Part shown: positions 11,903-39,112 of the stretch, piece after piece
Layout of the letters: each line of letters begins with the position of its first letter
Numbering within the stretch: position 1 is the stretch's first letter
NCBI GenBank assembly: GCA_902728285.1
Contig: CACVBU010000812.1
Coordinates: 660,849 to 724,848 of the forward strand
Reading direction: 5' to 3'
Origin: Clytia hemisphaerica
Taxonomy: Eukaryota > Cnidaria > Hydrozoa > Leptothecata > Clytiidae
DNA: 64,000 nt
Notes under the pieces: model-generated
Databases searched by the model: none
What the model was told of the DNA's origin: nothing
Seen by the model: the letters and a program-made list of their open reading frames with translations, nothing else
Translations under genes and position numbers: made by a program

Positions 11903-11944
11903 CAATTAAGGCAGTCCGCAGAATATCCCTAAAATCTGTAACTC

Positions 11945-12430
11945 TATACAGAAGCAGCCGGCGAAGCAATTTTTTAGAATTATGTGTTCTTATCTTCTAG
12001 GAGATACAAAATTGACTGTAGTTCTTGACAACTTGAAGATTTTCTAGGAGCCGAGCATCTTATACATAGATTTTCTATGCTCAATAGGGAAAGTTACATT
12101 TCTTACTAGTGATGTGTTCTTTTTTCTAGGGGAGACTTTTTTCCCAGCAGTACCAAAAATTCTTCCACTGTGCCACGTTAAAACGGTCTCCGTTAACAGC
12201 TTTCCACTACCGATGTGTTCTGGCTTCTAGCTTGAGAGTAAATGTTGTTGGTAGACATTCCCCTTACTACTTACGTGTTCTGAAATTCTAGGAAATGTTA
12301 TACTTTTGATAAGAGAACACGTCCAAATATCTAGCAACGTGTTAAGATTTTTGTCAGAACACATCTCAATTTCCAGCTAGATGCTAGGGATTTCACAAGA
12401 ACACATCTAAATTTCCAGCAGAACACCCGG
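11945..12430. repeat. Cluster of GATGTGTTC / GAACACATC motifs in opposed orientation
   Basis: About four GTGTTCT...TTCTAG units are followed by about three to four GAACACATC...TTTCCAGC units, giving an inverted array. The left end has AGCAGCCGGCGAAGC, which matches in reverse the right end of a related cluster at 29396-29800. Probably one non-autonomous element family with subterminal repeats. Confidence 0.6.
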
Positions 12431-13580
12431 AGATTATTACCAACCTTGTTCCCCGTGTATCCCAGGCTTTAGTTACGTTCCTGAATGACGCCTAAGAATA
12501 CCCAGGCGTTGGCTTCTATATTTTTCACCGCTGTTAGTTTTTTAATGTTTCAATAGCATAATTTATTATGTCTATTCGGGAGACACTACTTTAATATAAT
12601 AAAGTTTTTCGGCCTTTGCGAAATGGCCTTAGCCGCGAAATATTTTCAAAATAAAATAAACAAGCTAGATACTAAATGGACGCATGATTGATGATTAAAG
12701 TTAGATAGCAATGAGAAGAAAAATGAAAACAATCAGTCTGAAAATAAGAATGGAAAAAATGAAAAATGAAATCTCGATAAAATGCCAAAAAAAAAAGGTT
12801 TTTCGGGCATATATTTTTTTTCTCGAAAATTGGGCTCCGTCACATTTAGGGCCTTACTATTTTGCATCTTTGTTCCATAAATCTGAAAAAACTAATAAAC
12901 CAATCTAGAGAAAAGCTGGTAACAGACGGACCGACGAGCGATCGGACAAAGGTTAATTTATAGGGCCAAGTAACCCCCTTTTAAAATGTTTACTGGCATC
13001 AAAGAAGCGCTGATATTATGTATTTCAACAGCCAAAATGCATGATTTGACAGTAAAAGGCACAAGATCGTGATAAAAGTGTCTTCCGAAAGGGCCATCCG
13101 CGAAATTAAGTCTCCGATAAATCTTCGCGGATAAGCTCAACCACAAAATTCAATCCCCGGGAATTTTATCCCATTAAACTGGTCAAAATTGTATCATCAA
13201 GTAATAAGCAAATAATAAAAATGAAAGCAAACAAGATGATCATAATCGAATTTTCCTTTTGAATATAAGGCGCTTAAATCCTGGAAAAATTAATCCTTAC
13301 CAAAAATCTCCCAATCCAAGACGAAAATTTCAAACAGTCTCTATTATTTCAATCATTTTTTAAAGTGTTTCACAATAATACAAGACTCTAAAAAATTTAC
13401 TGATAAGTGATAGTACAATCTCAAAAAACGAATAGACTCTTTTTTATAAGCATAACGTTAATAAGCATATTTCAAGGTCAAATTCGGTAAAAAATAATCA
13501 TAATGCTAAGCATACCTACAAGCTGAAATGCAAAAAAAAAACTCGTGCAGGTTCTTTTCAAATGCTAACCTTTTTAGGAT
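12431..13580. other. Intergenic, AT-rich with CCGCGAAATTAA-type motifs
   Basis: No supported gene. 13090-13150 contains a CCGCGAAATTAAG motif related to the MITE family at 13581 and 49406. Confidence 0.5.
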
Positions 13581-13856
13581 TACCTTAATTTAAGAAATTT
13601 TGGCGGAAATAAAACTAAGTTCCCGCCAAATTAAATTCTCGATCGATTAAGTTTTTTTTATGTCCGATTTTTCACAATTTACCCCCGATATCAATGTTTT
13701 CACCCTGATTTCGGATTTAAAGATCCCTCATCCGCCAAATTAAATTCGCGCCAAAATTAGCTCTTTCCCTGATCCGCCAAATAAAATTACCTACGAAAAA
13801 ACTTTTTTAGCCATCCGCCAAATTAAATTTCCGCCAAAATTTCTTCCCTTAAGGTA
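13581..13856. mobile_element. MITE with TACCTTAA ... TTAAGGTA ends
   Basis: Left end TACCTTAATTTAAGAAATTT then TGGCGGAAAT; right end CCGCCAAAATTTCTTCCC then TTAAGGTA, an inverted repeat of about 30 bp. Three CCGCCAAATTAAAT motifs and variants lie inside. A related 131-bp copy is at 49406-49536. Confidence 0.65.
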
Positions 13857-14206
13857 CTTTTAAAGCTGTTTCAGCTTTCTTAAACCAAAGATTTTCGCCT
13901 GCTGCGCTGAATTACAATGAAAACTTTCATTTTTTGAGCCAAATCAATGTTCAAATATTCCAAAATGTCCGAGTAACGTTTTACCAATTACAGACCACGT
14001 TACTGGTGACAGTTAACTGGTCACTTCAATATAGCCAAAATCACCAAACAAGGAATGTTCAAGCAGTGTCCTCTGCAATAGCACAACTTACTCACTACAT
14101 ACCAAGCCAGTCTGGTTCTGGGCGTACTCATTATGACGTACCTCAAAACCGAGTACCGTTGCGTATTAGTATTCTGCTTGTCCATTGTAAAGCAACACGT
14201 TTGAAC

Positions 14207-14300
14207 CAACATCCAACCGAGTGATCCACCAACATCCAAACGAATGATCCACCAACATCCAAACGAGTGATCCATCAACATCCAATCCAAATGATCCATC
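14207..14300. repeat. 23-bp minisatellite, about 4 copies
   Basis: Tandem GAGTGATCCACCAACATCCA-type units with small variation (CCACC/CCATC, GAG/GAA). Confidence 0.8.
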
Positions 14301-14570
14301 TATCATTGCAGTGCAATTGGTGATAGCAGACGACCTATCACAAGGGGCATGGTGTTCTCTTTGATAATGTGGGCACACATGAGGCGGTGGGCATTCACAG
14401 GAGGAGACGACGTGGTGTTGAAGTGACATCCATATCGACGACCATCAGTTGTTGGGCAAGGGGTTTGTTGACCAATTTTGAAACGAAAAAGAGTTTGAAT
14501 ATAATTAGAATACATTTGAACCACAACAACATGTACACAAACTCCTGAAACAAAATCATGAAATCATTTA

Positions 14571-15604
14571 TTAGGTGGCCTGGACAGAAACATAGGAGGG
14601 TACACCACGTTTGTCATAGGTGAGAAACTTCTTTGGTTTCCTAATACGTTTTGGACGAACAAATTGATATAGTTGAAGACATTCATGATATGCGAGTTGG
14701 TTGCTTGATGTCGAAGGTTCATCCTCAAATTCATCCTTGGAGCCGTCGGAGATTTCATCTTTAGTACTACTCAATAATTGATCTGATATGATAGGGGAGA
14801 TACTACGATGACCAGATTCTTTTAGAACCACATCCTCAGCATCAGAATCTCCTAGTTCAGACTGATCTTGCAAACCAGCGTTATCAGGATGAAGGTACCC
14901 GCTCGAGTCATCACTGTGAGCCCTCTGACTCAAACCTGAGGAGGTACCTCCGAATCATCTAAAGTACAAACAGGCCTGCTCGAATCACCAACGGAATGAG
15001 AAGGTACCGCCGAATCATCAATCAGCCCACCGTTAGTTGTATGGAAGTACCCGCTCGAGTCTAGTGCTCGGTGAACCTCCTGGTTTGAATCACCAACGGA
15101 ATGAGAAGGTACCGCCGAATCATCAATCAGCCCACCGTTAGTTGTATGGAAGTACCCGCTCGAGTCTAGTGCTCGGTGAACCTCCTGGCTCGAATAACCA
15201 ACGGGATGAGAAAGTACCGCCGAATCATCTAAGGTACAAACAGGCCTGCTCGAATCATCACTCAGCCCACCGTTAGTTGTATGGAAGTACCCGCTCGAGT
15301 CTAGTGCTTGGTGAGCCTCCTGGCTCGAATCACCAACAGGATGAGAAGGTACCATCGAATCATCTACGATTCCGGTGCTTGAATCATCAGGTGTAGGTCC
15401 ATGCTGTACAATATGTATGAGTGGTGTCTCAAAAAATTCAAGATCTGCGCTAGACAACTTGCTCATTTCCCTTGCTTGATTAACAGATTCTTGAACTGTC
15501 ACAGTGGGTTCAATGACAACAGGGGTCAAAGTAGTATGACTCTTGTTCGCCTCGATTCTAGTATGTGCTCTCCTTTAGCTTTTGAACACCTTTTTCATGT
15601 GACA
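14571..15604 (-). pseudogene. C-terminal end of a retroelement polyprotein with tandem DSSGYFHTTNGGL repeats
   Basis: Two minus-strand frames: 15604-14930 (no ATG; opens after a stop near 15607) and 14933-14571, overlapping and offset. The first holds three to four degenerate copies of a roughly 34-residue acidic, Ser-rich unit (DSSGYFHTTNGGL...DDSAVPSHSVGDS), corresponding to DNA repeats 102-138 bp apart. The second ends RPKRIRKPKKFLTYDKRGVP, a basic tail typical of the C-terminus of Ty3/Gypsy-like pol proteins downstream of integrase (established pattern, recognised by eye). A stop codon overlapping an AATAAA (14572-14567, minus) ends it. Upstream pol domains are not in place, so this is a fragment. 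Confidence 0.5.
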
Positions 15605-15639
15605 CTGCTAATTGTGCGTACCCTATTAGTGTACTATCT

Positions 15640-17418
15640 TTAACACGCTTTTTATTACTGTACTATTTTATTACTGTACTATCTTTGAAATTTTTAAACT
15701 TTTATGAATTTTAATCTAATAAATCTAATTTAAATTGTATAAATTACCTATTTATTCTAATTTTTTATATCTTTATCTTAGCTATGAAACATTTTCATTT
15801 TTGTATTTTTACGTAGAATTTGCGAGATTAAGTAGGCATTTTTTTGTCTTATGCAAATATAAAACTAGAACTAGTACTAGTTAATGTTTAGTTGTTTACA
15901 TTTGACATCCCTTCATGGTGACTCACGAGTATTTTGCAGAACAGATCAGTGTCTATGAGTCACCAGTCCACCATGCCCCTTTCTTGAGTGTTCTGTGTTT
16001 TTGTCTTTGCTGCCCATGCTCTTTGGGGCCTGGTAACGAGTTTGACCTTTTTGACCAGGCTCAATAAGAGCATGTGGATTTCACAGAGTTCTGGTTGAAG
16101 ACCATACATGCTGTACCATTGTTAGAGTAGAAAATATCTTTAGTTTATGTCATTTTGTAAATGACTTGTGTTTTCAATTTCTTCTGTCCAGTACTATCCA
16201 CCAAACGTTTTCAGTAGCTTTCGGGTTACTACATACACTGTTGAATGTCTCATTGATATTAGAGTTTAAACGAATCAAGTGTAGAAGACTATGCAAAAAA
16301 TCAACCATAGAATCATAGTAATTATTGTTTAAACACGATAACATCACCGAAATCGAGACAATTCAAACTATAATTCCTCAAAACTTCTGAAATCATACTG
16401 AATCTAAACGGGAAAGGAATATATTTTACCTTTAACGGAGAGAGTATCGGTACATATTTAACAGAACATTTCAAAAATTATTCACAGGGGGAGGGACAGT
16501 TACACACAGTTTGTCTTCAAATTGGATAGTAGATTAACTTAATTAGAGTTTGGAAGTTTTAACTTTCTTTAACTTAGATGTATTAGGGTATCTCGTCATT
16601 AGGCATTAGACAAAATGAGTCAGTAAGAGATTTCAGAAGTTTTTTGTAAAATATAACAAATTTAACAAGGTCAAAATTACATTACAAAAACACTTTCTAC
16701 AAATTTACATCATTATATTACATTTTTTTGTTAAATAAGTCCAATAAGTCTAACAAGAACCGTCCACTTCCCCATCCCGCATGAACTGTAAAAAATTGGT
16801 GGCGTAAAAAATATAAAAGTTGCGGCGCTGGAGCTATAAAATATTAATACATTCGAAACTCCCTTTGAATGAAATTCAACAGAATCCAAATACGTAAAAC
16901 CCAACCATGTACACAAAGCTACTTAGAGAAGTGACGATAATTTTTTTTAACGTTCGCAAAGTACATAAAGATAATCGTTGTTTTAAGGCTCTAAAACATG
17001 CTAAAAAGGAGTTTCACTCCGCCAAATTAAATAGCGTTTTAGAAAACAAAAATTAGATTCCCATAAGGCGAGGCCAATTTAATTTGTTGTTTTACGGGCC
17101 AAGCAAAAACTACTGAATCTTGACAAAAATGCGAAATAGAAAACAAAAAGACACAAAAGGCTCGAATTCGTGGATAAAATGAAAAATTAAAGCAATGAAA
17201 ATAAAAATGTACTGCCAAAATCAATTAAATTTTTATTTCGATTTTTTGAATTTCAGGGTCGCTAAAACAACTAATCAAATTGGTCTCGCCTAAGATAGTC
17301 ACAATATAGAAATATAAAATGTTCAAAATTTCCAACAAGAGTGTGCTTCCTCACTTCGTTACTTGTTAGTACGATCATAAAAAATACCAAAAAACAACAT
17401 TAAATAACGGTTCTAATA
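15640..17418. other. Intergenic, no supported gene
   Basis: AT-rich. Contains a GCCTGGT...ACCAGGC inverted pair near 16030-16065 and a CCGCCAAATTAAAT motif near 17020. It may hold the 3' flank of the transposon-like unit at 17419, but no terminal repeat was identified. Confidence 0.5.
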
Positions 17419-20400
17419 TTAGAAAAATAAACCATCTGCGAGTGAGCAATACGAGCAGCGCCAATTGTCGATGTTTTCTTCATTCACACAGGACTTGTGG
17501 AATAAATCGTCACATGTTGAGCACTTAAGCATTTTTTTATCATCAGGAAGTGAACATAAACAAGAAACTGATATGTATCTGACTGCCTCTCGTTTGATAC
17601 TTCTTCTGTGGTTTGGTCCAGAAATGCGTGGAAAAGGTTTGATCATTCCATCTGTGAAACATTTGCTCATGTGACTTCTCATTTCGCTCTGATCATAACA
17701 AGCTTCGATAGGATTGTGTCCATTCACAATATCAATGGTGTACGCGACAGCAAAAAATCCACAGTCGTTACCGCCAACTTGTTTATACACTTCGGGAAAT
17801 GTGATTTCGAGTTTCTTGTTTAAAATCGCCATTGGATAGCATTGACAAAGTTGTTTAGCCAAAGCTGGCAAAACTTTCGTGTACAAACTGTCATAAACAA
17901 TAACTTTGCCTGCCTTCAGCATAGATAACACCCAATGATTCGTACCATCATGATGGATCTGTAGACCATCGCAGTCTTTAGGTGCTGGTTCAAATTTATT
18001 CCGTTCTGCCAGATAGGTACTTTGAAAGCCTTTCATTTCTGGATGTTGTTCAGAGATTTTATCTTGTGCCCGATTTATCAACTCGCCACTTGCCCATTCG
18101 TTTTTTCTCGTAGATGGATGCTCTTCCTTTTTAGAAAACGAAAACGATTTTAAGGTAGTGACTGATTTCTGAGAATTTTTTTTCTTCTTCTTTGTATTTC
18201 CTGGCTTTGTTGGAGGATCGATAGCTTTCCTTTTCTTCCCCTTTTTGCCAAAGAAATCTGTTCTGTCGCAAGCAGACGTGGTGGTAGCAAAAACGGTCTC
18301 TTCTCGATCGAAAGCTTTCCTTTTATTGAAATTGATTGGGCGGTCGAAACAAGAGCTTTCAAGCCAAATTGGTTGGTGATCAGAATCCTTGAATTTTACC
18401 AAGTAGACATACTCATGTGATTTGGCATCCACTCTTCTGTCTGATACGTCTTCAACTTCTTGAAACTCATCAGGTAATTGGTCTTTAGCTATCTTCTTGG
18501 CCAAAGCTAAATCCTTCGATTCTTCATGGCTTTTGACTGTGGTATCTACAACTTTCTTAAAATTTGGCATGACTTCCAGACAATCGTCTTTGTTTCGCTC
18601 AAGCCCAACTTCCCCATAGATATTTGTTACTTTCAACCACTTGCTGACCAAGATCTTTTCTGGCAATCGGTAAACATACTGGCGCAATTTTTGAAGAGGG
18701 ATTAAGCGACAAGTTGCATTCTCGTCTTCACTTGATACACTCATCACTGAATTACCATTACTATTCAATGTAGCCACTTTACAAACCACTGTTTCATTCG
18801 AGATCTTTGCAACAACATAGCGGAATATAATCACATTGTGATCCTCTTTTATTTCTTTCCGGTCAGGGAGATAATTAGCAGCGATGTGTCGCCTTGAGCG
18901 TTCCCGAGAAACATACTCTCTTGGTACAAGCATTTTCAGGGCCTGCGTCAAATGGATGTAGCCTAATTTCCCGTTTATATATCTTGAAATAAGCCACTTA
19001 TTGTTTTGAGGTTCTTCAGATTCGACGGTATCTTCTGTGTTGGCTGTTGTTGAAGGTTTAGGTGATCCCGGATTTGTTTCAATATTTTCTTCTCCGCAGC
19101 TTTCGAACTCTTCAGACTCGCGTTCAGCCTTGAAATATTCATTTATCTTCTTCTCCTTATCCATAACAGACTGTGTTAGAAGGATCGATGGACTAATTTC
19201 TGTCAACATTCGAAGTGCATAAACATTGTCAATAGACCCATCAAAGCAGTTTTCTTTAGGAATGGAATCCGTACCATTCTGATGCAGAAAATCAAGACCG
19301 CATTGGTTTTCCAACCATTGAATTCCATCCTCGCAATATTCCCTGTACAATTCAACACCCATTTTGACTCCATCTTTGTATGCTTGCCGTTGATGGTTTA
19401 GAAACTCCAGGAATGTATTGGGGTATTTGTATTCTGTTACTTTTGCGCTTTGAAGTTTATGAGACAATCTTCGGCGATTTGTTGAGTTTAGCTTTTTGGC
19501 ACCTGCAGCAATAAGTTCCTCTTCCACTAAATGGTTCATCTGGACTTTGGAAACACGATGAATGATATCCAAAAGTGTTGGTTGGGCGTCCAATGACTGG
19601 AATTGGTTCGTCTTACCCTGGACTTCACTGGTGATGCGCTCTGTGGCTTTGGTTCCACATTTGAATGGAGATAACGCAGTCGGGCCAAGATGTTTGAAAT
19701 GTAAAAAAATGGTCAGCATGTAAGATGTTGCACTCGCAAATAAAATTTCCGCAGTTTTGTAGCAACCATAAGTTAAGAAGAAACTTCTCTTTGCTGGCTC
19801 CTTTGCAGCTTTCGGTGCAGCTGTCAATCTTTTCTTCTTAAGCTGAAGTATCTTCCTCCAAATTCGCAGGACAGTTATGCCAGTTGAGATACTTGTTTGC
19901 ATGTATATTGGATCGGACGATGGGTTTAAAAAGGGCTCGAACAAATAGATGACGGCACGCAAGTAAAGCACAGTCCCCTCTGCTCCATTCACATTCTTTT
20001 CCAGCATATCAGCGACACTAGGTTGAAATACTTTAATTGCAGCATCACAATTTTGATCTAGGTAACGCGGAAACAACAAATCATTGTTGCTGAACGGGCA
20101 CTCTAATGAACTTTCCGTTTCGTCGCACTTTAGTTTTAACTCTTTCAGGTGCGTTATGGCAGCACTGTATGTCACTTTGGGGTTCGGGAAAAAGTTCATT
20201 TCCAACGTATTGTATTTGAGACATCTCAAAAAGAGGCGCAATCCATGGTCGTAATCGAGAAATGCTATTGAAGGCAATGGACCGAAGTAGGGTGAAGCAT
20301 AACAACTTTCTCCAATGCCCAATGTTAAGTACTTAACGCCTTCCTTCATAGCTTCCTTGTTGGGTGACATCAAGGATAATGCGGCTGCCAATTGAAAGCC

Positions 20401-20814
20401 AGCAGAGTCGGTTGAGTGACCGATCAAATTCAACGGGTTGATTTTTAAGCTATTGTCTTCGTTCAAAAAAGATTTTGTTCTAATCACATCCCAGATCTTA
20501 AGTAGATGGGGACCACAATAACCAGAGTTAGGGGTTGGCCATACAAGGAACACAATTGGTTCACTCGCTATTCCAGATCCTGATGTAAAATTGTGGATTG
20601 CGGTGTCTTTGGCAAGTTGATTTGTTTTAATAATTCCATCCACATAATCTTTCAAAGCAGAGTACTGATCAATTGAATTCTTTGAAAGGATATCATCTAA
20701 ATACTTTCTTTCGTCATTCCATCGGTTCAAATCAGCAAAGTAAACTTGTGATTCACCCCAGATTTCATTTTTAGGAGCAGATTCTTCAGTAAAGCAAACT
20801 GTATGGATTCCCGC
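17419..20814 (-). CDS. Large transposon-type protein: unknown N-terminus, chromodomain-like, Ulp1/C48 protease, PHD finger
   Basis: Open frame with no ATG at its head; it follows an in-frame stop at 20817-20815. Numbering from a TTG at 20730 (1103 residues): residues 1-550 are of unrecognised family (GHSTDSAGFQLAAALSLMSP, then LDYDHGLRLFLRCLKY). Residues 758-796 resemble a chromodomain (EVEDVSDRR...YVYLVKFKDSD...IWLESSCF). A Lys-rich nuclear-localisation-like stretch lies near 825-855. A Ulp1-type cysteine protease follows with His932-Trp, Asp947, Gln984 and Cys990 (QVGGNDCGFFAV), all catalytic positions present. A PHD finger ends the protein (CLC, CSTC, HKSC, CSYC, 1057-1095). Ulp1 domains cleave SUMO-type tags and recur in large eukaryotic DNA transposons; the role here is inferred. 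No internal stops. The start is probably reached by a frame change or intron from the small ORF at 20888. Confidence 0.75.
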   Translation of the reverse strand, partial: AGIHTVCFTEESAPKNEIWGESQVYFADLNRWNDERKYLDDILSKNSIDQYSALKDYVDGIIKTNQLAKDTAIHNFTSGSGIASEPIVFLVWPTPNSGYCGPHLLKIWDVIRTKSFLNEDNSLKINPLNLIGHSTDSAGFQLAAALSLMSPNKEAMKEGVKYLTLGIGESCYASPYFGPLPSIAFLDYDHGLRLFLRCLKYNTLEMNFFPNPKVTYSAAITHLKELKLKCDETESSLECPFSNNDLLFPRYLDQNCDAAIKVFQPSVADMLEKNVNGAEGTVLYLRAVIYLFEPFLNPSSDPIYMQTSISTGITVLRIWRKILQLKKKRLTAAPKAAKEPAKRSFFLTYGCYKTAEILFASATSYMLTIFLHFKHLGPTALSPFKCGTKATERITSEVQGKTNQFQSLDAQPTLLDIIHRVSKVQMNHLVEEELIAAGAKKLNSTNRRRLSHKLQSAKVTEYKYPNTFLEFLNHQRQAYKDGVKMGVELYREYCEDGIQWLENQCGLDFLHQNGTDSIPKENCFDGSIDNVYALRMLTEISPSILLTQSVMDKEKKINEYFKAERESEEFESCGEENIETNPGSPKPSTTANTEDTVESEEPQNNKWLISRYINGKLGYIHLTQALKMLVPREYVSRERSRRHIAANYLPDRKEIKEDHNVIIFRYVVAKISNETVVCKVATLNSNGNSVMSVSSEDENATCRLIPLQKLRQYVYRLPEKILVSKWLKVTNIYGEVGLERNKDDCLEVMPNFKKVVDTTVKSHEESKDLALAKKIAKDQLPDEFQEVEDVSDRRVDAKSHEYVYLVKFKDSDHQPIWLESSCFDRPINFNKRKAFDREETVFATTTSACDRTDFFGKKGKKRKAIDPPTKPGNTKKKKKNSQKSVTTLKSFSFSKKEEHPSTRKNEWASGELINRAQDKISEQHPEMKGFQSTYLAERNKFEPAPKDCDGLQIHHDGTNHWVLSMLKAGKVIVYDSLYTKVLPALAKQLCQCYPMAILNKKLEITFPEVYKQVGGNDCGFFAVAYTIDIVNGHNPIEACYDQSEMRSHMSKCFTDGMIKPFPRISGPNHRRSIKREAVRYISVSCLCSLPDDKKMLKCSTCDDLFHKSCVNEENIDNWRCSYCSLADGLFF

Positions 20815-20888
20815 TTATCGCGTTGTTCAAAGAGTGAGATGAGATCGATAGTCATTTTCTTAATGTCGTCATCCAGATAGGACTGCAT
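20727..20888 (-). CDS. Small linking ORF (53 aa) starting on a TAATG overlap
   Basis: The ATG at 20888-20886 shares a base with the TAA that ends the upstream 765-aa ORF. The product begins MQSYLDDDIKKMTIDLISLF and continues EQRDKRESIQFALL; it is acidic/amphipathic and protein-like. Its last 30 codons overlap the open head of the 17419-20814 frame, which is at -1 relative to it. A -1 shift would fuse the two. I see no canonical slippery heptamer, so a mutation, an assembly indel or a short intron are equally possible. Confidence 0.45.
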   Translation of the reverse strand: MQSYLDDDIKKMTIDLISLFEQRDKRESIQFALLKNLLLKMKSGVNHKFTLLI

Positions 20889-23185
20889 TAGAATTTTTTG
20901 CCTTTTTTCTTGAAGAGAGTTTTGGGCTGCATACTTCGGATGTTTCTTTTATCCTTCAATTCTTGAACAAAATGATGATCCCAGAAAAAATGACATGCTA
21001 CTGTTCTTCCTTTTCCAGTCGACTTGAAGTAATTACTGATGTATTGATCTGGTTTCTTTTTTAAACTTGCTGAAAAGTCCTGACAGACTGACCTTTCAAA
21101 AAATTGAATCGCTTCTTTATGGTGCGATGTAATTGAGTGATCATAAAGCTGACGAAAACCTTGAAATCTGCCGAGACCGACATTGCATCCACTACCTTGA
21201 GATTTCATGAAGTCACCATACAAAGGACATATTTCACAAGAAAATTCAAGATGACATTGCGAGTCAGCAAGTGTGAACTGCGGAAGCACATAGCCAAGTT
21301 TGAGAAAATCGAAGAAATTTGAAGATGAGCTGCATACAGGAATCGGTGTAAAAGAACCGCAAAGGAATGACTTCAGTCTTTTTTCCGTTTCAGATGTAGA
21401 AAACTTTGCCCGAGTGAAAATTGTTTCGTATTTTGTCGACGTTATTTCCATTGGAGGAAAAACTGAATCCAAGAATCTGTCAAATGTTGTGCAATCAGAA
21501 GGCATATTAACTGATGTCATGGCCTTGTAATTTTGAAAATGCCTCGAAAAAACAAGAGCATTAAATTTGTGTGATTCTTTTTTTTTCTGTCTGAATGAAA
21601 ATGACTTTTCATGATATACGGGCTCATCAAGTTTATTTCTCATTGTATCTGCTTTTTTATAAAAATCAAAAAGTGATTTCTTTATCTTATCTTTTCTGGT
21701 CTTCAAAGCAACGTTTTCTGGATTGACAGAGTTTGGAGCGATATCAGGACTGTCAGCATTTATGATGAGAACATCAGCACTGTCAGCATTCGCAGTGAGA
21801 GCTTCAGGATAGTTAGCTTTCGCAGTGAGAACGTCAGGATAGTCAGCATTTGCATTGAGAACTTCAGGATAGTCAGCATTTGCAGTGAGAACGTCAGGAT
21901 AGTCAGCATTTGCATTGAGAACTTCAGCATTGTCAGCATTCGCAGTAAGAACTTCAGCATTGTCAGCATTCGCAGTAAGAACTTCAGCATTGTCAGATTT
22001 CGCAGTGAGAACTGTAGCATTGTCAGCATTCGCAGTGAGAACTTCAGGATAGTCAGCTTTCGCAGTAAGAACTTCAGCATTGTCAGCTTTCGCAATAAGA
22101 ACTTCAGCATTGCCAGCTTTCGCAGAGAGAAGAACTGCAGCATTGTCAGCATTCGCAGTAAGAACTTCAGCATTGTCAGCATTCGCAGTGAGAACATCAG
22201 CATTGTCAGCTTTCACAGTAAGAACTTCAGCATTGTCAGCTTTCGCAGTAAGAACTTCAGCATTGTCAGCATTCGCAGTGAGAACATCAGCATTGTCAGC
22301 TTTCGCAGTGAGAACTTCAGGATAGTCAGCTTTCGCAGTAAGAACTGCAGCATTGTCAGCATTCGCAGTAAGAACTTCAGCATTGTCAGCATTCGCAGAG
22401 AGAATTTCAGCATTGTCAGCTTTCGCAGTGAGAATTTCAGGATAGTCAGCTTTCGCAATAAGAACTTCAGCATTGCCAGCTTTCGCAGTGAGATCTTCAG
22501 CATTGCCAGCTTTCGTAGAGAGAACTTCAGCATTGTCAGCGTTCGCAGTAAGAACTTCAGGATTGTCAGCATTCGCAGTAAGAACTTCAGCATTGTCAGC
22601 ATTCGCAGTAAGAACTTCAGCATTGTCAGCTTTCGCAGTGAGAACTGTAGCATTGTCAGCATTCGCAGTGAGAACTTCAGGATAGTCAGCTTTCGCAGTA
22701 AGAACTTCAGCATTGTCAACTTTCGCAGTGAGATCTGTAGCATTCGCAGTAAGAACTTCAGGATAGTTAGCTTTCGCAGTGAGAACTTCAACATTGTCAG
22801 CATTTGCAGTGAGAACTTCAACATTGTCAGCATTCGCAGTGAGAACTGTAGCATTGTCAGCATTCGCAGTGAGAACTTCAGGATAGTCAGCATTTGCATT
22901 GGCAGTGGTGAGAACTTTTTTGCTACTGGAGCTTTGTTTAAGATTCGATAGATTGACACCAGTAATAATCTTTTCATACTTTCTCTTTCGATTTCTTTTT
23001 CTACCAATCGTGTAAACGATATTTCTCCTGGCAAGATTTCGTTCTAAAGCTTCTTGAAAGAGTTCATTGGATGTACTAGTTTTTGAAGATTCTGCGTCAT
23101 ATTTGCATTTGATTTTCGATATAGCGCAATACTGTCCATCAGTTTTAAACAAGTTATTTGAAAACCAAGAATTTAGCTCATCCAT
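20888..23185 (-). CDS. 765-aa protein with about 38 decapeptide repeats and a C-terminal CxxC...H...HH segment
   Basis: ATG start at 23185. Residues 1-95 are a charged head with basic stretches. The centre is a tandem decapeptide array (consensus ADNAEVLTAN / ADYPEVLTAK), perfectly in frame. After it comes a non-repetitive C-terminal region of about 245 residues containing CEICPLYGDF...YDHSITSHHKEA, a possible zinc-binding knuckle. The protein ends Lys-rich at a TAA overlapping the next ATG. Same strand and directly upstream of the Ulp1/PHD ORF, so probably the first gene of one transposon. No database family recognised. Lack of stops in 766 codons despite a hypervariable array argues that it is, or recently was, translated. 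Confidence 0.7.
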   Translation of the reverse strand: MDELNSWFSNNLFKTDGQYCAISKIKCKYDAESSKTSTSNELFQEALERNLARRNIVYTIGRKRNRKRKYEKIITGVNLSNLKQSSSSKKVLTTANANADYPEVLTANADNATVLTANADNVEVLTANADNVEVLTAKANYPEVLTANATDLTAKVDNAEVLTAKADYPEVLTANADNATVLTAKADNAEVLTANADNAEVLTANADNPEVLTANADNAEVLSTKAGNAEDLTAKAGNAEVLIAKADYPEILTAKADNAEILSANADNAEVLTANADNAAVLTAKADYPEVLTAKADNADVLTANADNAEVLTAKADNAEVLTVKADNADVLTANADNAEVLTANADNAAVLLSAKAGNAEVLIAKADNAEVLTAKADYPEVLTANADNATVLTAKSDNAEVLTANADNAEVLTANADNAEVLNANADYPDVLTANADYPEVLNANADYPDVLTAKANYPEALTANADSADVLIINADSPDIAPNSVNPENVALKTRKDKIKKSLFDFYKKADTMRNKLDEPVYHEKSFSFRQKKKESHKFNALVFSRHFQNYKAMTSVNMPSDCTTFDRFLDSVFPPMEITSTKYETIFTRAKFSTSETEKRLKSFLCGSFTPIPVCSSSSNFFDFLKLGYVLPQFTLADSQCHLEFSCEICPLYGDFMKSQGSGCNVGLGRFQGFRQLYDHSITSHHKEAIQFFERSVCQDFSASLKKKPDQYISNYFKSTGKGRTVACHFFWDHHFVQELKDKRNIRSMQPKTLFKKKGKKF
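21745..22910 (-). repeat. 30-bp coding minisatellite (about 38 units)
   Basis: Units read (minus strand) as decapeptides ADNAEVLTAN with Y/P, V, D and K variants. One unit is shortened to ATDLTAK and one lengthened by a codon (LLSAK), both keeping frame. A four-unit block (ADYPEVLTAN, ADNATVLTAK, then two DNAEVLTAN units) recurs, showing higher-order duplication. Because 30 is a multiple of three and the unit lacks stops in several frames, long shadow frames exist on both strands. Confidence 0.95.
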
Positions 23186-23599
23186 AGTGCACTAAAAATT
23201 ACATACATATGTTTTAAAGAGTATGTAAGAAAGACAAGAACTTTTTCAGCAAGTACTTTTTCTTTTTTATATAAGGTATTTGAATTTGAGGGAATCAGAA
23301 GCTATATATACTAACGTTTACTAAAAGTAGTAAATAATACTTTATTTCAAGTCCCGTAGTGTTAGCTACTAAAACAGTGAATAATCACAATACTGTATAA
23401 ATAAATTCAAACATTTCAACAGGGCCCAAAGGACGAGGGGTAAGAAAAGAGTAAAAGGTAAAGAGAGCGTTTAAAATTCTACAAGAAGAGAATTAAACTA
23501 GACCAATAAAAGAAGGGTTTACGTAAGGGTTTGGACTATAATTTTGGTATTCTTTCTTTTCGAAAGAAAAAAAACAGAAAAATCTTCGTACTTTTGTCC

Positions 23600-25600
23600 C
23601 TGTTCTCTATATCTTATAACTTAAAAAAAAAAAGCGACACTCTGTGATACTTCTAAACGTGATAGGACTATCAGGTGTCACTATCAAAAATTGGCTTTTG
23701 CTTTTTGCTCTAAATATATAATTAGTAAATGCTGCTAAAAATTTGTATTTTCATGGTTTTCTGAAAAAAAATCAGCGACACTCTATGATACTTCTAAACC
23801 TAATAGGACTATCAGGCGTCACTCGAGTGTTGAAGATTATTATCAAATATTGGATTTTGCTTTTTGCTTTTAAACATATGTAGTAAACGCTGTTAAAAAA
23901 ATTGTATTTACATGGTTTTCTTAAAAGAAAATCAGCAACACTCTATGATACTTGTAAACCTGATAGGACTATCAGGCGTCACTCGAGTGTTGAAGATTAT
24001 TATCAAAAACTGGATTTTGCTTTTTGCTTTTAAACATATGTAGTAAACGCTGTTAAAAATTTGTATTTTCTGAAAAAAAATCAGCGACACTCTATGATAC
24101 TTCTAAACCTAATAGGACTATCAGGCGTCACTCGAGTGTTGAAGATTATTATCAAATATTAGATTTTGCTTTTTGCTTTTAAACATATGTAGTAAACGCT
24201 GTTAAAAATTTGTATTTACATGGTTTTCTGAAAATAAAATCAGCAACACTCTATGATACTTCTAAACCTGATAGGACTATCAGGCGTCACTCGAGTGTTG
24301 AAGATTATTATCAAATATTGGATTTTGCTTTTTGCTTTTAAACATATGTAGTAAACGCTGTTAAAAATTTGTATTTTCTGAAAAAAAATCAGCGACACTC
24401 TATGATACTTCTAAACCTAATAGGACTATCAGGCGTCACTCGAGTGTTGAAGATTATTATCAAATATTGGATTTTGCTTTTTGCTTTTAAACATATGTAG
24501 TAAACGCTGTTAAAAATTTGTATTTACATAGTTTTCTGAAAAGAAAATCAGCAACACTCTATGATACTTCTAAACCTGATAGGACTATCAGGCGTCACTC
24601 GAGTGTTGAAGACTATTATCAAAAATTGGATTTTGCTTTTTGCTTTTAAACATATGTAGTAAACGCTGTTAAAAATTTGTATTTTCATGGTTTTCTGAAA
24701 AAAAAATCAGGAACACTCTATAATACTTCTAAACCTAATAGGACTATCAGGCGTCCCTGATAGGACTATCAGGCATTACTCGAGTGTTGAAGATTATTAT
24801 CAAAAATTGGATTTTGCTTTTTGCTTTTAAACATATGTAGTAAACGCTGTTAATGGTTTTCTGAAAAAAAATCAGCGACACTCTATGATACTTCTAAACC
24901 TGATAGGACTATCAGGCGTCACTCGAGTGTTGAAGATTATTATCAAAAATTGGATTTTGCTTTTTGCTTTTAAACGTATGCAGTAACCGCTGTTAAAAAT
25001 TTGTATCTTTATGATTTTTTGAAAAAAATCAGCGACACTCTATGATACTTCTAAACCTGATAAGACTATCAGGCGTCACTCGAGTGTTGAAGATTATTAT
25101 CAAAAATTGGATTTAGCTTTTTTGCTATTTAAAAAATATATAATTAGTAAACGCTGTTAAAAATTTGTACTTTCATGGTTAAAAGAAATCAGCGACACTC
25201 TATGATACTTCTAAACATGATAGGACTATCAGGCGTCACTCGAGCGTTGAAGATTATTATCAAAAATTGGATTTAGCTTTTTTGCTATTTAAAAAACATA
25301 TAATTAGTAAAGGCTGTTAAAAATTTGTACTTTCATGGTTTAAAAAAAATCAGCGACACTCTATGATACTTCTAAACCTGATAGGACTATCAGGCGTCAC
25401 TCGAGTGTTGAGGATTGTCCAAAAATTGGATTTTACTTTTTGCTTTTAAAAAATATGTAGTAAACGTGTTAAAAATTTGTATTTTCTTTTCATGGTTTTC
25501 TGAAAAAAAATCAGCGACACTCTATGATACTTCTAAACCTGATAGGACTATCAGGCGTCACTCGAGTTTTGAAGATTAACATTTAAAATTGGCTTTTTGC
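23600..25600. repeat. Satellite array A, about 13 monomers of roughly 150-163 bp
   Basis: Monomers begin near 23631, 23773, 23935, 24083, 24240, 24390, 24549, 24708, 24870, 25030, 25190, 25352 and 25513. Each has CACTCTATGATACTTCTAAA, a hairpin CCTGATAGGACTATCAGG (8-bp stem, 2-nt loop), CACTCGAGTG, and an AT-rich tail with TTTTGCTTTTTGCTTTTAAA. One monomer near 24735-24780 has an internal duplication of the hairpin. It lies 0.4 kb upstream of the decapeptide-repeat gene, so it could be a subterminal array of that element or an independent satellite. Confidence 0.9.
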
Positions 25601-25619
25601 TTAAAACAAAATAGTAACT

Positions 25620-27380
25620 GCTATCAAGATGAAATTTCATGTTTTATTTTTTTAAAGAAATCAGTAACTCTTTATTACCCTTACCCCTCATCCATATTTC
25701 AAATATTCTAAGATACCCAGAAAGATCTCACAAGGTCAGCTACCTATTACTTTTTAAATCTTACACTCCCTACATGACTACTCTATTTTTCCAAAACGAC
25801 CTAAAGAAATCCAACACTTTGCAGTTATCTTCCAGTCTGCAGTTAACTTGCTGCACATATTACCTTTTTCTTACTCCTCCCTTTGAGTGATATTGGAAGC
25901 CTCTATCAATCCCTTAAAAAAGATTCAAATTATGAATACTATAAATTAAAATATTTTCAAAATAGAATGGATGATAAAATTGCTCTCGTCAAACTCTCAT
26001 GTAATGTATGCGAATTTCAAATTATAATCACATCTTTTGTATAATACTTACTTTCTATAAATACTTACACAAAATAATCGAGAGAAACAATTCAACAAAT
26101 TCAAGTTTGCAATACGTTCATCAGTTCAAGAAACCTATGATTTTGAAGAAAACAATTTTCCTAGCATGTTTAAATTGAAAGAGCACGAGAAAAATACTGC
26201 AAAATATCCAATTAGTACAGTAAACTTAGAATTTCAAGTATACTTTCTTGTTTGATACTAAATAATCTTTTGCCAGCAATTTAAGATTCAAGATTTTTTT
26301 TATATGTATCAGTTTAAAATAGAATGACCCATCATTGTTCAGGCAAGGTCTGGATCTTCTTTTGAAGTTACTATTGGAGCTATGAGCTTAGTTCCTTAAG
26401 GACGCAAAAGATATGGTTTAGGTGGTTTACTGTACTTTCCCTTGTAAAAAGTTCAGTTTTTATTCCAAAAATTTTTATGTCCCCTTTGTGATGTAATTTT
26501 CCAAAAGATTCTTTCTTTTGGAAATCTCTATAGAGTGAAAATTTTACAGTTCTAAAGAAAAGATGTCCACACCCTCAAAAGTTCAAAAGTTATCCAGTCC
26601 TGATTTAAATATCTTGAAAACTTAGTAACTAAAAGGGTTAATACAGACAAATGTCATGCAACAATTTTAAAACCTTTTTAGTTCCCTTGTGTAATTTTGT
26701 AATCTGAATGTAAAAAGTTGCCTGATGGTTCATGTTAAAGATGAATTTCCACAAAAATAGAAAACATGCTTTAAAGGTAAACAAATGACTTGCTAGTGGG
26801 TTCCAAGTTTGCTGAGTTTCTTTCTCATTTTGAGTTTCAGAGTGGGGTTCATTGAGAAATTCCCAGGTAGTTTAGGTACACAAGGTTACTACATTATAAA
26901 ATCTTTCAATTTTAAATATGTTAGACTGAACAATGAACATTTGGTAGTTAGGGTATCATGTTGGATATTTAAAAACTCTACCATAAAAAAATGACAGGTT
27001 TATGCATAAGTATTATAAGTGTACATTCATTTTTAACTACTATCATTGTTTTGATGCTGAAGTTTTTAATTATATTCAACATGACATCCTAGCTAGCAAA
27101 TGGTCTATGAGCCGGGGGGTGGCACCCAAGGTAGATGACCTACTTATGTGCACCCCTTAAGGGTCCCTTTTCCAAGCTTGTTAGGTTGGGTCAAAATGAG
27201 CAAAGATGGGGAAAAGTGCACTACACTCTACAGGGTGTAGAATTTGAAAAATCATACTATATTTTGCCTGAAAATTTACTCAAATTAAGCTAAATTTTCC
27301 CTGCACTGTAAGGGTCCGATATCAAAGGCCTGATTTTGGGCCGCACGTATAGTAATTTTTTAATCGAGTGTCCGCTTAGG
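25620..27380. other. Intergenic, no supported gene
   Basis: AT-rich; frames of 60-83 codons at 25639-25890 and 26809-26994 lack motifs. Confidence 0.5.
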
Positions 27381-27410
27381 TCTATGAGGTTATATAATAT
27401 GCACACTTAC

Positions 27411-27492
27411 CAATGCTCACAGCTTTGAAAAAAATCTTCACAATCATCAGGTTGGGCAGGTTACGATTTGCAAGGTGATTTGTGTGTAGAAC
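27411..27492 (-). CDS. Candidate internal exon, unknown gene
   Basis: Minus strand: a pyrimidine-rich acceptor (TTTCTTCACTTCAG) opens a frame reading VLHTNHLANRNLPNLMIVKI, then FFKAVSIG, ending at a consensus donor (ATTG/GTAAGT). The frame stays open upstream to 27579. No partner exons were assigned; the CpG-rich start at 29307 is on the same strand. Confidence 0.3.
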
Positions 27493-27582
27493 CTGAAGTG
27501 AAGAAACCAGCAAAGCTTGAATGGCAACTGTACTACAAGACATGCATTGAAAGTCGAATATTGCTATTGCGAAAGACACATC

Positions 27583-27665
27583 ATTTCATACGAGCCCACT
27601 AAATGCAAAGTTCCAATATGATCAGAAACCCAACACTCAAACCACTGCGCTACTGATACAAGCCA
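27583..27665 (-). repeat. Possible tRNA-derived SINE fragment
   Basis: The minus strand has an A-box-like AGTAGCGCAGTGGTTTGAG. The B-box position has only a degenerate GGGCTCGTATGA. Low support. Confidence 0.25.
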
Positions 27666-27938
27666 GGAGAATTTCTCTGGTGGCTGCTATTTATTATTGT
27701 ACAAACTACAGATTACAAACTACACTATATTAAGAGAAAATCACAAAAGAGTGTTTGTTTCAATCGAGCTCCAACTCTGAACCTAACTGATAATGACCCG
27801 ATTCCCAGCCAATTTGAAACCCAACCACACCCATACCCAACCCTACTAGGTTGCCTGCAGGTCCTGACACTATTCCTGCATGCCGGATCTGAAAATATAT
27901 TTGCATTGTGTTATTTGCTTATGGAGAAGCCATCACCA

Positions 27939-28122
27939 TAGACCTTTTTTCAAAGAGGCCACCCTGTTGAATAATTATGTGGTCCAGCAGAAAAATAATG
28001 ATAAAACCATGCATAATTATTACAATATGCATGATACAGTAATTATGCATGCCTCTAACATTGTTTTTATGGCTGGACTACATAATTATTCAACAGGACG
28101 TCCTCTTTGAAAAAAGGTCTAT
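27939..28122. mobile_element. Tc1/mariner-like MITE with TA flanks
   Basis: TA followed by GACCTTTTTTCAAAGAGG at left and CCTCTTTGAAAAAAGGTC followed by TA at right; the inverted similarity extends about 50 bp on each side (GTTGAATAATTATGT / ACATAATTATTCAAC). Non-coding, nearly palindromic. Confidence 0.8.
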
Positions 28123-28218
28123 TTGACCATGAGGATTGGAATAGGTCTGATGTAAGTATTTTGGTATTTTGGTAGCAAGTTTAAGAGAAATAGTTTATAG
28201 CCATCATAAATAAAGTAT

Positions 28219-28460
28219 AATATCGTGAAGTTGGGTAACTTGCATCAGTGGAGGAAAACTTGCATAACCATCAAATGACTGACTAAATTAAAGTAGCAAA
28301 ATTTTAAAACAAATCAACTAAGCAGCTCCGCTCGCAGCCCTTCTCTACCATATTTGTTTTGATTTAAGTAACTTTATATTTTAATGACCAGCCAGATTAT
28401 TCATTTGAGGGTCATGCATGTTAGCCTCCACTGATGCAAGTTACCCGATCTCACGGTATA
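28219..28460. mobile_element. MITE family member, copy 1 (partner at 54023)
   Basis: Inverted ends GGGTAACTTGCATCAGTGGA and TCCACTGATGCAAGTTACCC. The interior is clearly similar to 54023-54265, including TTTGTTTTGATTTAA and CATTTGAGGG blocks. Confidence 0.8.
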
Positions 28461-28559
28461 ATTTGGGGTTGAGGGTAAACTGTTCATCTTTTCCCAGACA
28501 AAAAAAGCTTCTTTTTACTTGGCTTTGTCAATGCAGTACTGTGCCAAACATAGTATCAC

Positions 28560-28561
<2 letters not shown>

Positions 28562-28591
<30 letters not shown>
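28562..28591. repeat. CA dinucleotide microsatellite
   Basis: About 15 CA units in a row. Confidence 0.95.
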
Positions 28592-28592
<1 letters not shown>

Positions 28593-29159
28593 CACTGACA
28601 ACGAACAACATACTCACCTACCTTAATTCAAATTCGTAAATTCTTGACAAGAAATTTTGCCATACCCATACCCCAACAACCAACTGAACCAACAACCTAA
28701 CTTACTTTCGTTACTCGCACACATTGACATATCAGGCAAACTTAAAACTTACCACTAGCACTACTTCTGTTTTACTATACAGAGTACGTACAGTCCAGAC
28801 AGTAGTCTAATACTTATTTCCCTGCCTTACTTTATATATTTTGGAATAAAAATTTCAGACATACCTTGTATGCTATGATTTCTTAATGATCACCACTGAT
28901 AGCAGCAAGTCATCCTTATCAAACTTGTGTGTTTGTTTGTTGCCCATGTTCCTGATGTTCAATGTTAATGTTTACAGTTTGACAGTCGGTTCTTGTTTTG
29001 CCAGTCTGTTGGTAATTTTCTGAATTATTAATGTCGCTGTGAGCGGCTACCATACCAGCCTGTTCGCGCGGTTTCGATGTTGGCACATGGACTCTAAGTT
29101 TTGCGACGCCATGTGTAGCATCAGATAGAGGTCCAGTACCGTAAATATTTTTATATTAT

Positions 29160-29307
29160 ACACCCCGCCGCCCGCCGCCCGGCGCGTAGCAACAACCGGT
29201 GGGGTTTTCGCGTGTTGGCTGTCAGTGCTATTAATCCTCGAATCCTGCGAAGAGTTGTCTGAGTTCGTGAGTTTTAACGTACCCAAACTCCTCTTCGATT
29301 TGGCCAT
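29160..29307 (-). CDS. CpG-rich candidate first coding exon
   Basis: The minus ATG at 29307 opens MAKSKRSLGTLKLTNSDNSS, then QDSRINSTDSQHAKTPPVVA, then TRRAAGGG, entering a GC-rich tract with a weak GT donor near 29160. The GC/CpG content stands out from the surrounding AT-rich DNA, as promoter-proximal first exons often do. The Ser/Asn-rich sequence gives no family. It could equally be chance. Confidence 0.3.
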
Positions 29308-29395
29308 CTAGGCATTTTTTCTGTATGTTTGATTCATTCAGAAAACATACGCAAAAAATCTTTATATATTAATTAATTTTCCAAATTCTCAGTCA

Positions 29396-29805
29396 GAACA
29401 CATTTTAACGAAGAGTCGAAAATACTTCTATTTATTTTCCAGGGAGTGGATAGGAAAGTTAAACTTTTCCAGAACCGAAGAACACATCAGCCCGAGAGAA
29501 CACATCAATCAATATTTTATATCGAACACATCTATTTTTCATTTTTCATGAAACACTTCATGAGTTTTTTTTGTATCCTTATCACATTATCATCAGAACA
29601 CATCATATTTTTTAGACATTTGCTATTTGGATATCATCATGCAAGCTTTACTATTTTACACGCCTTTCCTTCTAAAGAACACATCAAAATTTCTAGCTGG
29701 TGGTTAATACGGAACTTGTAAGAACAGATCAAAATTTCTAGCCGAAACATACACACAGAACACATCGAAAAAAAAGGTCGCCTCGCCGGCTGCTTTCGTC
29801 TATAG
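29396..29805. repeat. Cluster of about 8 GAACACATC motifs, same orientation
   Basis: AGAACACATC recurs at about 29396 (variant), 29472, 29488, 29523, 29594, 29676, 29719 (variant) and 29756, some followed by AAATTTCTAGC. The right end GCCGGCTGCTTTCGTCTATA matches in reverse the left end of the cluster at 11945. No coding content. Confidence 0.65.
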
Positions 29806-29809
29806 CTAC

Positions 29810-31149
29810 GCGTCATTTTCACTTTTTTTACTGTTTACTTGTTTAAAATTTTTCGAGATAAAATTCAATGATTCTAGAATCTAAATTCATCCATTTTACT
29901 TAACTATTATACATAATGAGGCTCAAAAACGTAATTTCGTCATACTCTCAATTTGACCGGTTTTTGACGTATTGCATACGTATTTTTGATCAATCCTTAC
30001 GGTTTTTTTACTTTTCTTCAAAGCTGATACCATTACCGAACGAATCACGTTTAAGTAGATGGTACCTGATCCCTTTATACCCTAAAATTTTAAGTTTCTT
30101 TATGAAAGAAATCGATACTTCTGTCTTTGCCGCGAATTTATCAACCTGTGCGCGCGCGGCCGCCGATCTACCTCGACGATATAAGTAAGTATTTTATATA
30201 TGCTTTCGAATGGTACATGATATTTAATATAAAGATATGACTTTGTGCATGCAAGAGTATTAATCAAAATTTGATGTAGTCGATTTCTATCAATTCACGG
30301 GGTTTGACCAATTCTGCAGACCCGAATATAAAAATCGTACCCAAGCTCTTTTCTAATCGGCCCAGGCCCTGGATTTGCTATGGACCAATCAGATGCGTTT
30401 AATTTTCGCGCTACATTCCTGACGAAGGTAGAGCGGGAAAAGAATTATTTATCAAACAAACCAAGTAGAGAGCAGAGGTTGGTAGCTAATAACAGATTAA
30501 TTGAACCTGTTTAATCTGAATAAGAAGCTATATTTTTGGTTTTGAGTGTAAGTATACTGATTGGTGTATCTTCTGAGGTATGTATTTTCATTGGATTTAT
30601 ATCACTTGAGAATGTTGTGCTTTTCCAAATTTGTTTGGCTGGGGCGGATATGATAAAAAAGTAGAACTTTGTTAGGGGGTAAAGAAAGAGGGATCCCAAA
30701 ATACAATGGTATTTTTCTATGTTTCAAATAATTAGCCATATGCCTTACAATCCCAAGAATTTCAACTTTAATGTTATAACTTTAATTTAGTCCAGCAGTG
30801 AAGTAAGACTCTTTTGTATTCTTCTCTCTGGCATCTGACTGAGAGACTAGGGATAGTACTTGGTTGAGCAATTATTCCCCAGTCAGGTAAAAGTGTAATC
30901 TTTGAGATCCAGCAATTCAGGAATAAAGTTTATGACTCTCCGAACGTAGTTATTTCAGTAGAAATCATATATCAGGGTTGGTTTTGGGTGGTAGACGGAA
31001 AACTTACCAAAGGCCTTCAGTCTCGAAGTCCACAAAAACCAGTCAAATCTTCAAACTGGTGTGGAGTCACTTAGAATTTGATTTAATTTATTGATTCTGT
31101 TTGATATAATCTAAGAGACATTTTACAGGCGTTTTATAGAGAGAAGAAA
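29810..31149. other. Upstream flank of the kinase ORF; no gene
   Basis: A CCAAT motif (GGACCAATCAGATGCG) lies near 30390 and a short GC-rich patch near 30150. The 90-codon frame at 29916-30188 has no recognised domain, although it ends next to a GT donor. Confidence 0.4.
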
Positions 31150-38944: not shown

Positions 38945-39112
38945 ATATATGGAGCAGAGCGTGATATGCGCAGAATGGATCTGTTATGAGATTAGGCCTT
39001 TAACCCCACAGTTTTTATTTGACGTCAATTAGATAAGACGCTTTTGCAACGCTCTTCGAAAAAATGGCTGAAAACAAATCAAAACATCAAAATTCATGAA
39101 AATAACATCAAA

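Follow-up and report, generated by a model that had tools for sequence, protein, structure and literature searches.

A degenerate copy of a probable large terminal-inverted-repeat DNA transposon in Clytia hemisphaerica, with a split gene for a putative transposase

Introduction

P elements have inverted repeats at their termini and additional sites immediately internal to them, and they duplicate 8 bp of their target; the target duplication of Ginger1 elements is 4 bp. In some hydra families of Ginger1 the transposase ends in an Ulp1 domain, with a PHD finger in Ginger1-9_HM, and participation in transposition or repair has been suggested (PMC2836005). The catalytic signature of the P superfamily is given as D230, D303, D(2)H at 339 and E531 (PMC8230255). 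Other described groups come near in the length of the target duplication: IS3EU elements have 6-bp duplications and inverted repeats longer than 30 bp, a hAT6 group with 6-bp duplications exists (both PMC12730594), and Dada elements make 6-7-bp duplications, are without terminal inverted repeats and insert in small RNA genes (PMC3706591). Here we describe a large repetitive element of the hydrozoan Clytia hemisphaerica, analysed in a stretch of 64,000 nucleotides of contig CACVBU010000812.1 (positions 660,849 to 724,848 of the forward strand, assembly GCA_902728285.1), hereafter the window, whose gene, in diverged relatives with one continuous frame, encodes a protein of about 2,200 amino acids (aa) with an Ulp1-like protease domain.

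A previous interpretation of this DNA from its letters alone (the sequence-only reading) had taken positions 17419-23185 for a two-gene unit, composed of a decapeptide-repeat protein and a protein with chromo-like, Ulp1 and PHD parts, belonging to a potentially mobile element of a class that it could not name. We followed it up by comparing the locus with its relatives in the 417-Mb genome.

Results

Comparison of the window with related copies placed the transposon copy at 11949-29798 (17,850 bp, no strand assigned), on the basis of end bases shared among relatives and of an empty site. Both long open reading frames (ORFs) lie inside it, and its length is three times that of the unit delimited from the sequence alone. 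The left terminal inverted repeat, beginning CAGAAGCAGCCGGCGAAGC, occupies 11949-11990 on the plus strand, and the right one, beginning CGAAAGCAGCCGGCGAGGC, occupies 29757-29798 on the minus strand. The two are imperfect, with 30 of 42 bases of the left end matching the reverse complement of the right end and 16 of the 20 outermost bases identical, and they were also recovered by an inverted-repeat scan. The left terminal base, 11949, coincides with the start of homology in all three close copies of the element (C489, C254 and C349), and the right terminal base, 29798, is common to the window element and one copy, C489.

Immediately outside these ends, comparison of the flanks revealed a 6-bp target site duplication, TCTATA, at 11943-11948 on the left and 29799-29804 on the right (both plus strand). 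The empty target, with a single TCTATA, was found at six other places in the genome with 1-2 mismatches each, and the control gave none. The one paralogue fetched, L090, was aligned with the two window flanks brought together, giving 124 identities over 128 aligned bases and two gaps of a single base. These results indicate that repetitive DNA was the target of the window element and that its insertion produced a 6-bp duplication. The large copy C254 is bordered on both sides by ATTAGT, an exact 6-bp duplication, and its end motifs stand 28.1 kb apart, the right part of that interval being unread.

The ends of the window element are also marked by clusters of a short motif, GTGTTCT/AGAACAC: 14 of its 16 occurrences lie at most 600 bp from an end against 1.08 expected, with a binomial P of ~4e-15 that is optimistic because the motif was picked after inspection of the sequence. 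Eight sites form the left cluster (11984-12426) and six AGAACAC sites the right one (29395-29763), neither cluster having a strand assigned. In the interior, upstream of the gene, there is a 12-copy tandem array of 159-bp units (23682-25602), and the close copies have the array too. All in all, the locus presents the features of a class II terminal-inverted-repeat DNA transposon, namely inverted repeats, a duplication of fixed length, an empty site, dispersed multiple copies and non-autonomous derivatives. The search for genomic copies and the alignment of their flanks, both recommended in the sequence-only reading, thus yielded other copies, ends and 6-bp duplications, and its suspicion of a mobile element with recent copies was borne out by the exact ends, the 6-bp duplication, the empty site and the close copies.

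As that reading had described, the element contains two long ORFs on one strand, the minus strand. The upstream ORF (20888-23185) starts with ATG and encodes 765 aa; the downstream ORF (17419-20730) encodes 1103 aa from a TTG, or 1131 aa stop to stop from 20814. When the window was compared with C489, C254 and C349, all three close copies proved to carry additional coding stretches of 478 bp and 283 bp exactly at the boundary between the two ORFs. The corresponding junctions in the window lie at 20902-20903, with 1 nt of microhomology, and at 20731-20736, with 6 nt of microhomology (both minus strand, judged against C489), and they represent deletions in the window copy, because microhomology is present at both and both lengths shift the frame. 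In agreement with this, diverged relatives that are ~50% identical to the window protein have one continuous frame, of 2,210 aa in L028 and 2,178 aa in L029. The two ORFs are therefore fragments of a single gene split by two frameshifting deletions: the ORF at 20888-23185 covers the N-terminal portion of the putative transposase, including the decapeptide array, and is joined by coding sequence in the relatives to the ORF at 17419-20814, which holds the C-terminal part according to ORF calls and genome matches. The 283-bp stretch, kept by the other copies, encodes an SDEAR motif that is missing from the window frame. The window copy is defective and unable to make the putative transposase, since the deletions split the gene and one of them took away the first of the putative catalytic Asp residues. 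Damage is seen in the other close copies as well: C254 contains stop codons, in C349 the stretch corresponding to window 18422-18995 is missing, and C489 has a split frame.

The first fragment had been credited with a variable repeat, and the array does vary. It consists of 30-bp units, each encoding a decapeptide, and a tandem-repeat scan placed 38 copies at 21766-22898 (minus strand). Its length differs among copies, with approximate counts of 35 units in the window, 63 in C489, 61 in C254, whose span is inflated by a stray match, and 11 in C349.

Searches of the genome with the large ORF gave at least 66 matched stretches (the best 41 of 180 candidates were scored), and the ORF is therefore not a chance frame. 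By best protein matches, with DNA alignments also made, the close copies are identical to the window at 99% (C489), 98% with a decayed end at 70% (C254) and 95-96% (C349) of positions, and several diverged subfamilies contain recent copies that are 96-99% identical in DNA. Single-copy host genes lacking flanking repeats, the outcome that the sequence-only reading had named as counting against itself, are not what was found: the ORFs are multicopy and the copies share their ends.

The end motif AAGCAGCCGGCGARGC had 165 exact matches in the genome and none in the reversed control, with ~100 of the places listed. Forty stretches at these motifs were fetched; one of them, L042, is the right terminus of C254, and the other 39 were scored. 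At 24 of the 39 both ends were present 391-770 bp apart, defining a set of short elements. An exact 6-bp duplication (in one case AAAAAA) flanked 16 of the 24, compared with 1 of 552 mispaired flanks used as control, and three more had a 6-bp duplication with one mismatch. Outside the host genome, the comparison covered non-eukaryotic collections, and no relatives were confirmed among 53 candidate stretches in viral_contigs or 42 candidate stretches in genome_contigs.

We then examined the domains of the protein. A 14-row profile built from relatives and the window matched the Ulp1-like SUMO protease 6dg4 with E=6.8e-7; the window protein alone matched Ulp1-fold proteases in the PDB weakly (E=0.18-0.27), and Pfam C48 was found in 4 of 14 members, with a best E of 0.002. 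The His/Asp/Gln/Cys residues are present, within the motifs HHDGTNHWVLS, YDSLY and KQVGGNDCGFF at 17752-17964 (minus strand), so that the domain qualifies as Ulp1/C48. A PHD-like C4HC3 finger lies at 17446-17562 (minus strand); its Pfam match in the window protein (E=0.0023) reached 18.3 bits, short of the curated cut-off of 24, and its match to the PHF2 PHD finger in the PDB had E=6.7e-4. Pfam PHD was detected in 2 of 14 members. The finger ends the window and L013 proteins, and none follows Ulp1 in L028, L029 and L030. A chromodomain-like stretch was placed by eye at 18337-18459 (minus strand) in the window, Pfam Chromo being found in 1 of 14 members with E=0.0016. Of the three parts named from the letters alone, Ulp1 thus held up, and the PHD finger and the chromodomain are more weakly supported.

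Upstream of these domains, the family shares a series of acidic residues in a conserved order, described here with the residue numbers of L028 and with column conservation taken from two alignments, A1 and A4: S/TDEAR (D906), GHxxDSAGF (D1043), D1094-x-x-H1097 and GTKTTER (E1297). In the window, on the minus strand, the putative second catalytic Asp (D1043) falls in GHSTDSAGFQLA at 20386-20421 and the DxxH motif in DYDHGLRLF at 20230-20256, each near-invariant in A1 and invariant in A4. The putative catalytic Glu (E1297) falls in GTKATERITSEVQGK at 19612-19656; this E is invariant in A1 and near-invariant in A4, and its role was assigned by eye. D906, D1043, the DxxH at 1094 and probably E1297 would form an RNase H-like core. 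Sub-threshold matches of the core vary from member to member, for instance DUF3060 with E=0.029 in L028 alone of six.

Codon comparisons indicate that this core is under purifying selection. The ratio of nonsynonymous to synonymous substitution rates (dN/dS) between L028 and L029 was 0.224 over 2,155 codons, with the lowest value in the core (0.092, aa 866-1340), followed by 0.110 in the chromo-like part and 0.30 in Ulp1; the N-terminal aa 1-130 gave 0.43 and the variable aa 131-385 the highest value, 0.571. Between L030 and L005 the ratio was 0.116. Values of 0.35 for L029 and L033 and of 0.40 for L030 and L035 have few changes behind each. Synonymous divergence was saturated in the comparisons of the window ORF with L028, L034 and L012 and of L028 with L034.

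Downstream of the putative transposase lies the remnant of a second repeat-bearing ORF (14930-15574, minus strand), which measures 446 aa in C489 and 637 aa in C254, stop to stop. The ORF corresponds to 14574-15574 (minus strand) in the window, 1839-3749 in L024 and 4751-6088 in L022, contains tandem repeats of 105-135 bp and differs in length among copies (214-637 aa stop to stop). In C489 and C254 it ends in a charged tail, GRPKRIRKSKKFLTYDKRGVPSY, which we take to be retroelement-like in look. Pfam matches to this ORF look like repeat artefacts. A sister subfamily has a different repeat ORF downstream (L030, 3154-3750), with an NMQHA pentapeptide-like array after a coiled-coil-like stretch; repeat-rich ORFs therefore recur next to these genes.

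Other features were noted in the window and in the fetched stretches. A protein kinase ORF (31105-32340, E=3.5e-20) begins ~1.3 kb past the right end of the element. The ORF at 39023-40213 has a weak PHD match (E=0.00046) and resembles ORF1 of long interspersed nuclear elements by eye; its relative at L034 2163-2927, 49% identical over 235 aa, has a PHD match too. A DDE_Tnp_4 (Harbinger-type) transposase ORF lies at 59084-59977 (E=8.2e-23), and a Transposase_21 (CACTA-type) ORF at L027 7458-8534 (E=2.7e-18), in the stretch that follows the C349 homology on its right. Elsewhere in the genome, P-like RNase H domains (PF21787) had at least 150 matches (150 of 247 candidates were scored), so that true P-like transposons are abundant.

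Discussion

The explanation that we favour, and consider very probably correct, is that the window contains a decayed copy of a large DNA transposon with terminal inverted repeats, whose gene has been split and whose ~2,200-aa protein acts as the transposase. We are less confident about what the individual domains do. Several observations weigh against the explanation. Concerning the protein, two AlphaFold models were unusable (mean predicted local distance difference test scores of 45 and 39), which leaves the RNase H fold putative; the core had no match above cut-off in Pfam and NCBIfam and hit no transposase family there; and among the four copies of the window's own subfamily no uninterrupted full-length frame was seen. 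Concerning the ends, a search of the genome for the empty site of C254 gave 0 matches, the flanks of C489 contain no matching duplication (its left flank contains N), and the ends of the sister subfamilies, those of the diverged relatives with intact frames included, were not found in the fetched stretches. Concerning the short elements, 15 of the 39 end-motif loci showed no second end within the fetched stretch, and five of the 24 elements show at least two mismatches over 6 bp; two of these five match exactly at another length, 7 bp in one case and 9 bp in the other. That the short elements would be mobilised by the putative transposase is suggested by the ends they have in common.

If the protein is the transposase, its N-terminal half and zinc-finger-like motifs, recognised by eye, would bind the terminal and the clustered subterminal GTGTTCT sites. 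The core would cut the ends in the manner of Asp-Asp-Glu (DDE) transposases and join them to target cuts staggered by 6 bp. The chromodomain, Ulp1 and, in some subfamilies, PHD parts may engage chromatin, and Ulp1 and its neighbours could take SUMO, or a modifier akin to it, off the transposition complex or off silencing factors. For movement, the window copy would depend on transposase supplied by another copy.

The element appears to be a cut-and-paste transposon, and its superfamily assignment is left open given divided profile statistics. The family libraries searched name no family, which accords with the sequence-only reading, where the class could not be named. A narrower form of our explanation, compatible with it, is that the element belongs, as a highly diverged member, to the P superfamily and has acquired chromo, Ulp1 and PHD parts and a 6-bp duplication; we regard this as an open prospect that is somewhat more apt to fail than to hold. 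Its D, D, DxxH, E order fits, by eye, the published P signature (PMC8230255), and the wider order of motifs resembles, also by eye, that of P-like domains of the same genome: LPxKTC..GxN, DEA, LIG, AxH..G..P(L/I)xFxF, D-S/G-A, DxxH, and E followed by a hydrophobic stretch and QPT. The profile comparisons pulled in both directions. With hhalign against three P-like sequences, the score between the first and second Asp was 22.7, with a maximum of 20.2 in 40 column shuffles and a probability of 4.5%; against seven P-like sequences, however, it was 20.8, within the range of 100 shuffles (maximum 21.1). The full 1,086-aa core aligned elsewhere, and its E-containing domain was unmatched (7.6 vs a shuffle mean of 8.9). 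Reciprocal hmmsearch put three P-like domains on top (E=0.067, 0.08 and 0.16; best reversed control 0.77), but in the forward search shuffled proteins outranked family members. The Pfam P-like models matched no member of the family despite at least 150 PF21787 matches in the same genome, and in 14 members, several with the N-terminus missing, Pfam found no THAP domain at E<=1. In addition, Galileo, of the P superfamily, is described with 7-8-bp duplications (PMC4168063), compared with 6 bp here. A resemblance to P-element transposases is accordingly not established.

Alternatively, and a little less probably still, the element may represent an undescribed cut-and-paste superfamily, characterised by a length of ~18-28 kb, 6-bp duplications, CAG/CGA termini, subterminal GTGTTCT clusters and a ~2,200-aa transposase. 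In such a superfamily a DDE-type core of its own lineage would be fused to a chromodomain, a SUMO protease and sometimes a PHD finger, and would be preceded by a fast-evolving N-terminal segment, with the repeat array in the window subfamily. Titles and abstract openings in the literature gave no description of the element, and none joining a transposase, Ulp1, a chromodomain and terminal inverted repeats; Repbase stood outside the comparison, so that an existing entry is possible.

Much less probable is that the long ORFs belong to a chimeric or domesticated host gene family passively carried in a transposon. The host-like chromatin domains of the protein would suit this, as would the short elements, which at 391-770 bp are too small for the gene. 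However, the frame is conserved over diverged subfamilies, several of them with recent copies, and the core is the most constrained part of the protein; moreover, between the ends of the window element no ORF of at least 200 aa exists besides the repeat array and 14930-15574, though genes with short exons could escape such a count. Two separate genes, for a decapeptide-repeat protein and a protease-like protein, are suggested by the window copy in isolation only, and this reading was ruled out, leaving it a negligible chance, by the two deletions, whose coding stretches are present at both junctions in all three close copies, and by the continuous frames of L028 and L029.

Taken as a transposon protein, the product of this gene would combine a chromatin reader and a protease of the SUMO type with a core resembling that of a transposase. 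Having them in one molecule would allow a suspicion to be tested, that mobile elements bring their own desumoylating enzymes to withstand host silencing or repair, and the family offers substrates for direct transposition tests in its precisely defined ends, its empty site and its short elements. The locus also carries a caution, in that neighbouring long ORFs may be the wreckage of a single gene. If the core is indeed a new lineage, one superfamily would be added to the roughly 20 recognised (PMC9587614).

The element shares features with several known groups, compared here (KDZ, CMCT, Galileo, IS3EU and Dada) through their published descriptions. IS3EU resembles it in the 6-bp duplication and the inverted repeats, but the IS3EU termini of fungal families, TAYGG..CCRTA, differ from its CAG/CGA (PMC12730594). 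The KDZ group (Kyakuja-Dileera-Zisupton), from which the sequence-only reading had taken Zisupton as an example for comparison, also comprises large eukaryotic DNA transposons, but KDZ/Zisupton duplications are 7-8 bp long and those of CMCT (CACTA, Transib, Plavaka etc.) 2-5 bp, compared with 6 bp here (PMC12730594). Pfam scans of family members gave no KDZ match, and in 14 members no hAT match at E<=1. With Dada, as described, the element shares the length of the duplication (6-7 bp), a large transposase and a DxxH motif; unlike Dada, it has inverted repeats, and its short elements occupy varied targets, Rfam giving no match in the window at gathering score. Some hydra families of Ginger1 share with it an Ulp1 domain that ends the transposase and, in Ginger1-9_HM, a PHD finger. 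Ginger1 elements are smaller (2.6-7.1 kb), duplicate 4 bp rather than 6 bp and carry a Gypsy-type integrase core, and for the present family the Pfam scan of 14 members found no integrase model. The P superfamily (P element, THAP9 and Galileo) is like the element in its inverted repeats with inner sites and, by eye, in the D/D/DxxH/E order; the element departs from it in duplicating 6 bp rather than 7-8 bp, in the ~2,200 aa of its protein and in the C-terminal chromo, Ulp1 and PHD parts.

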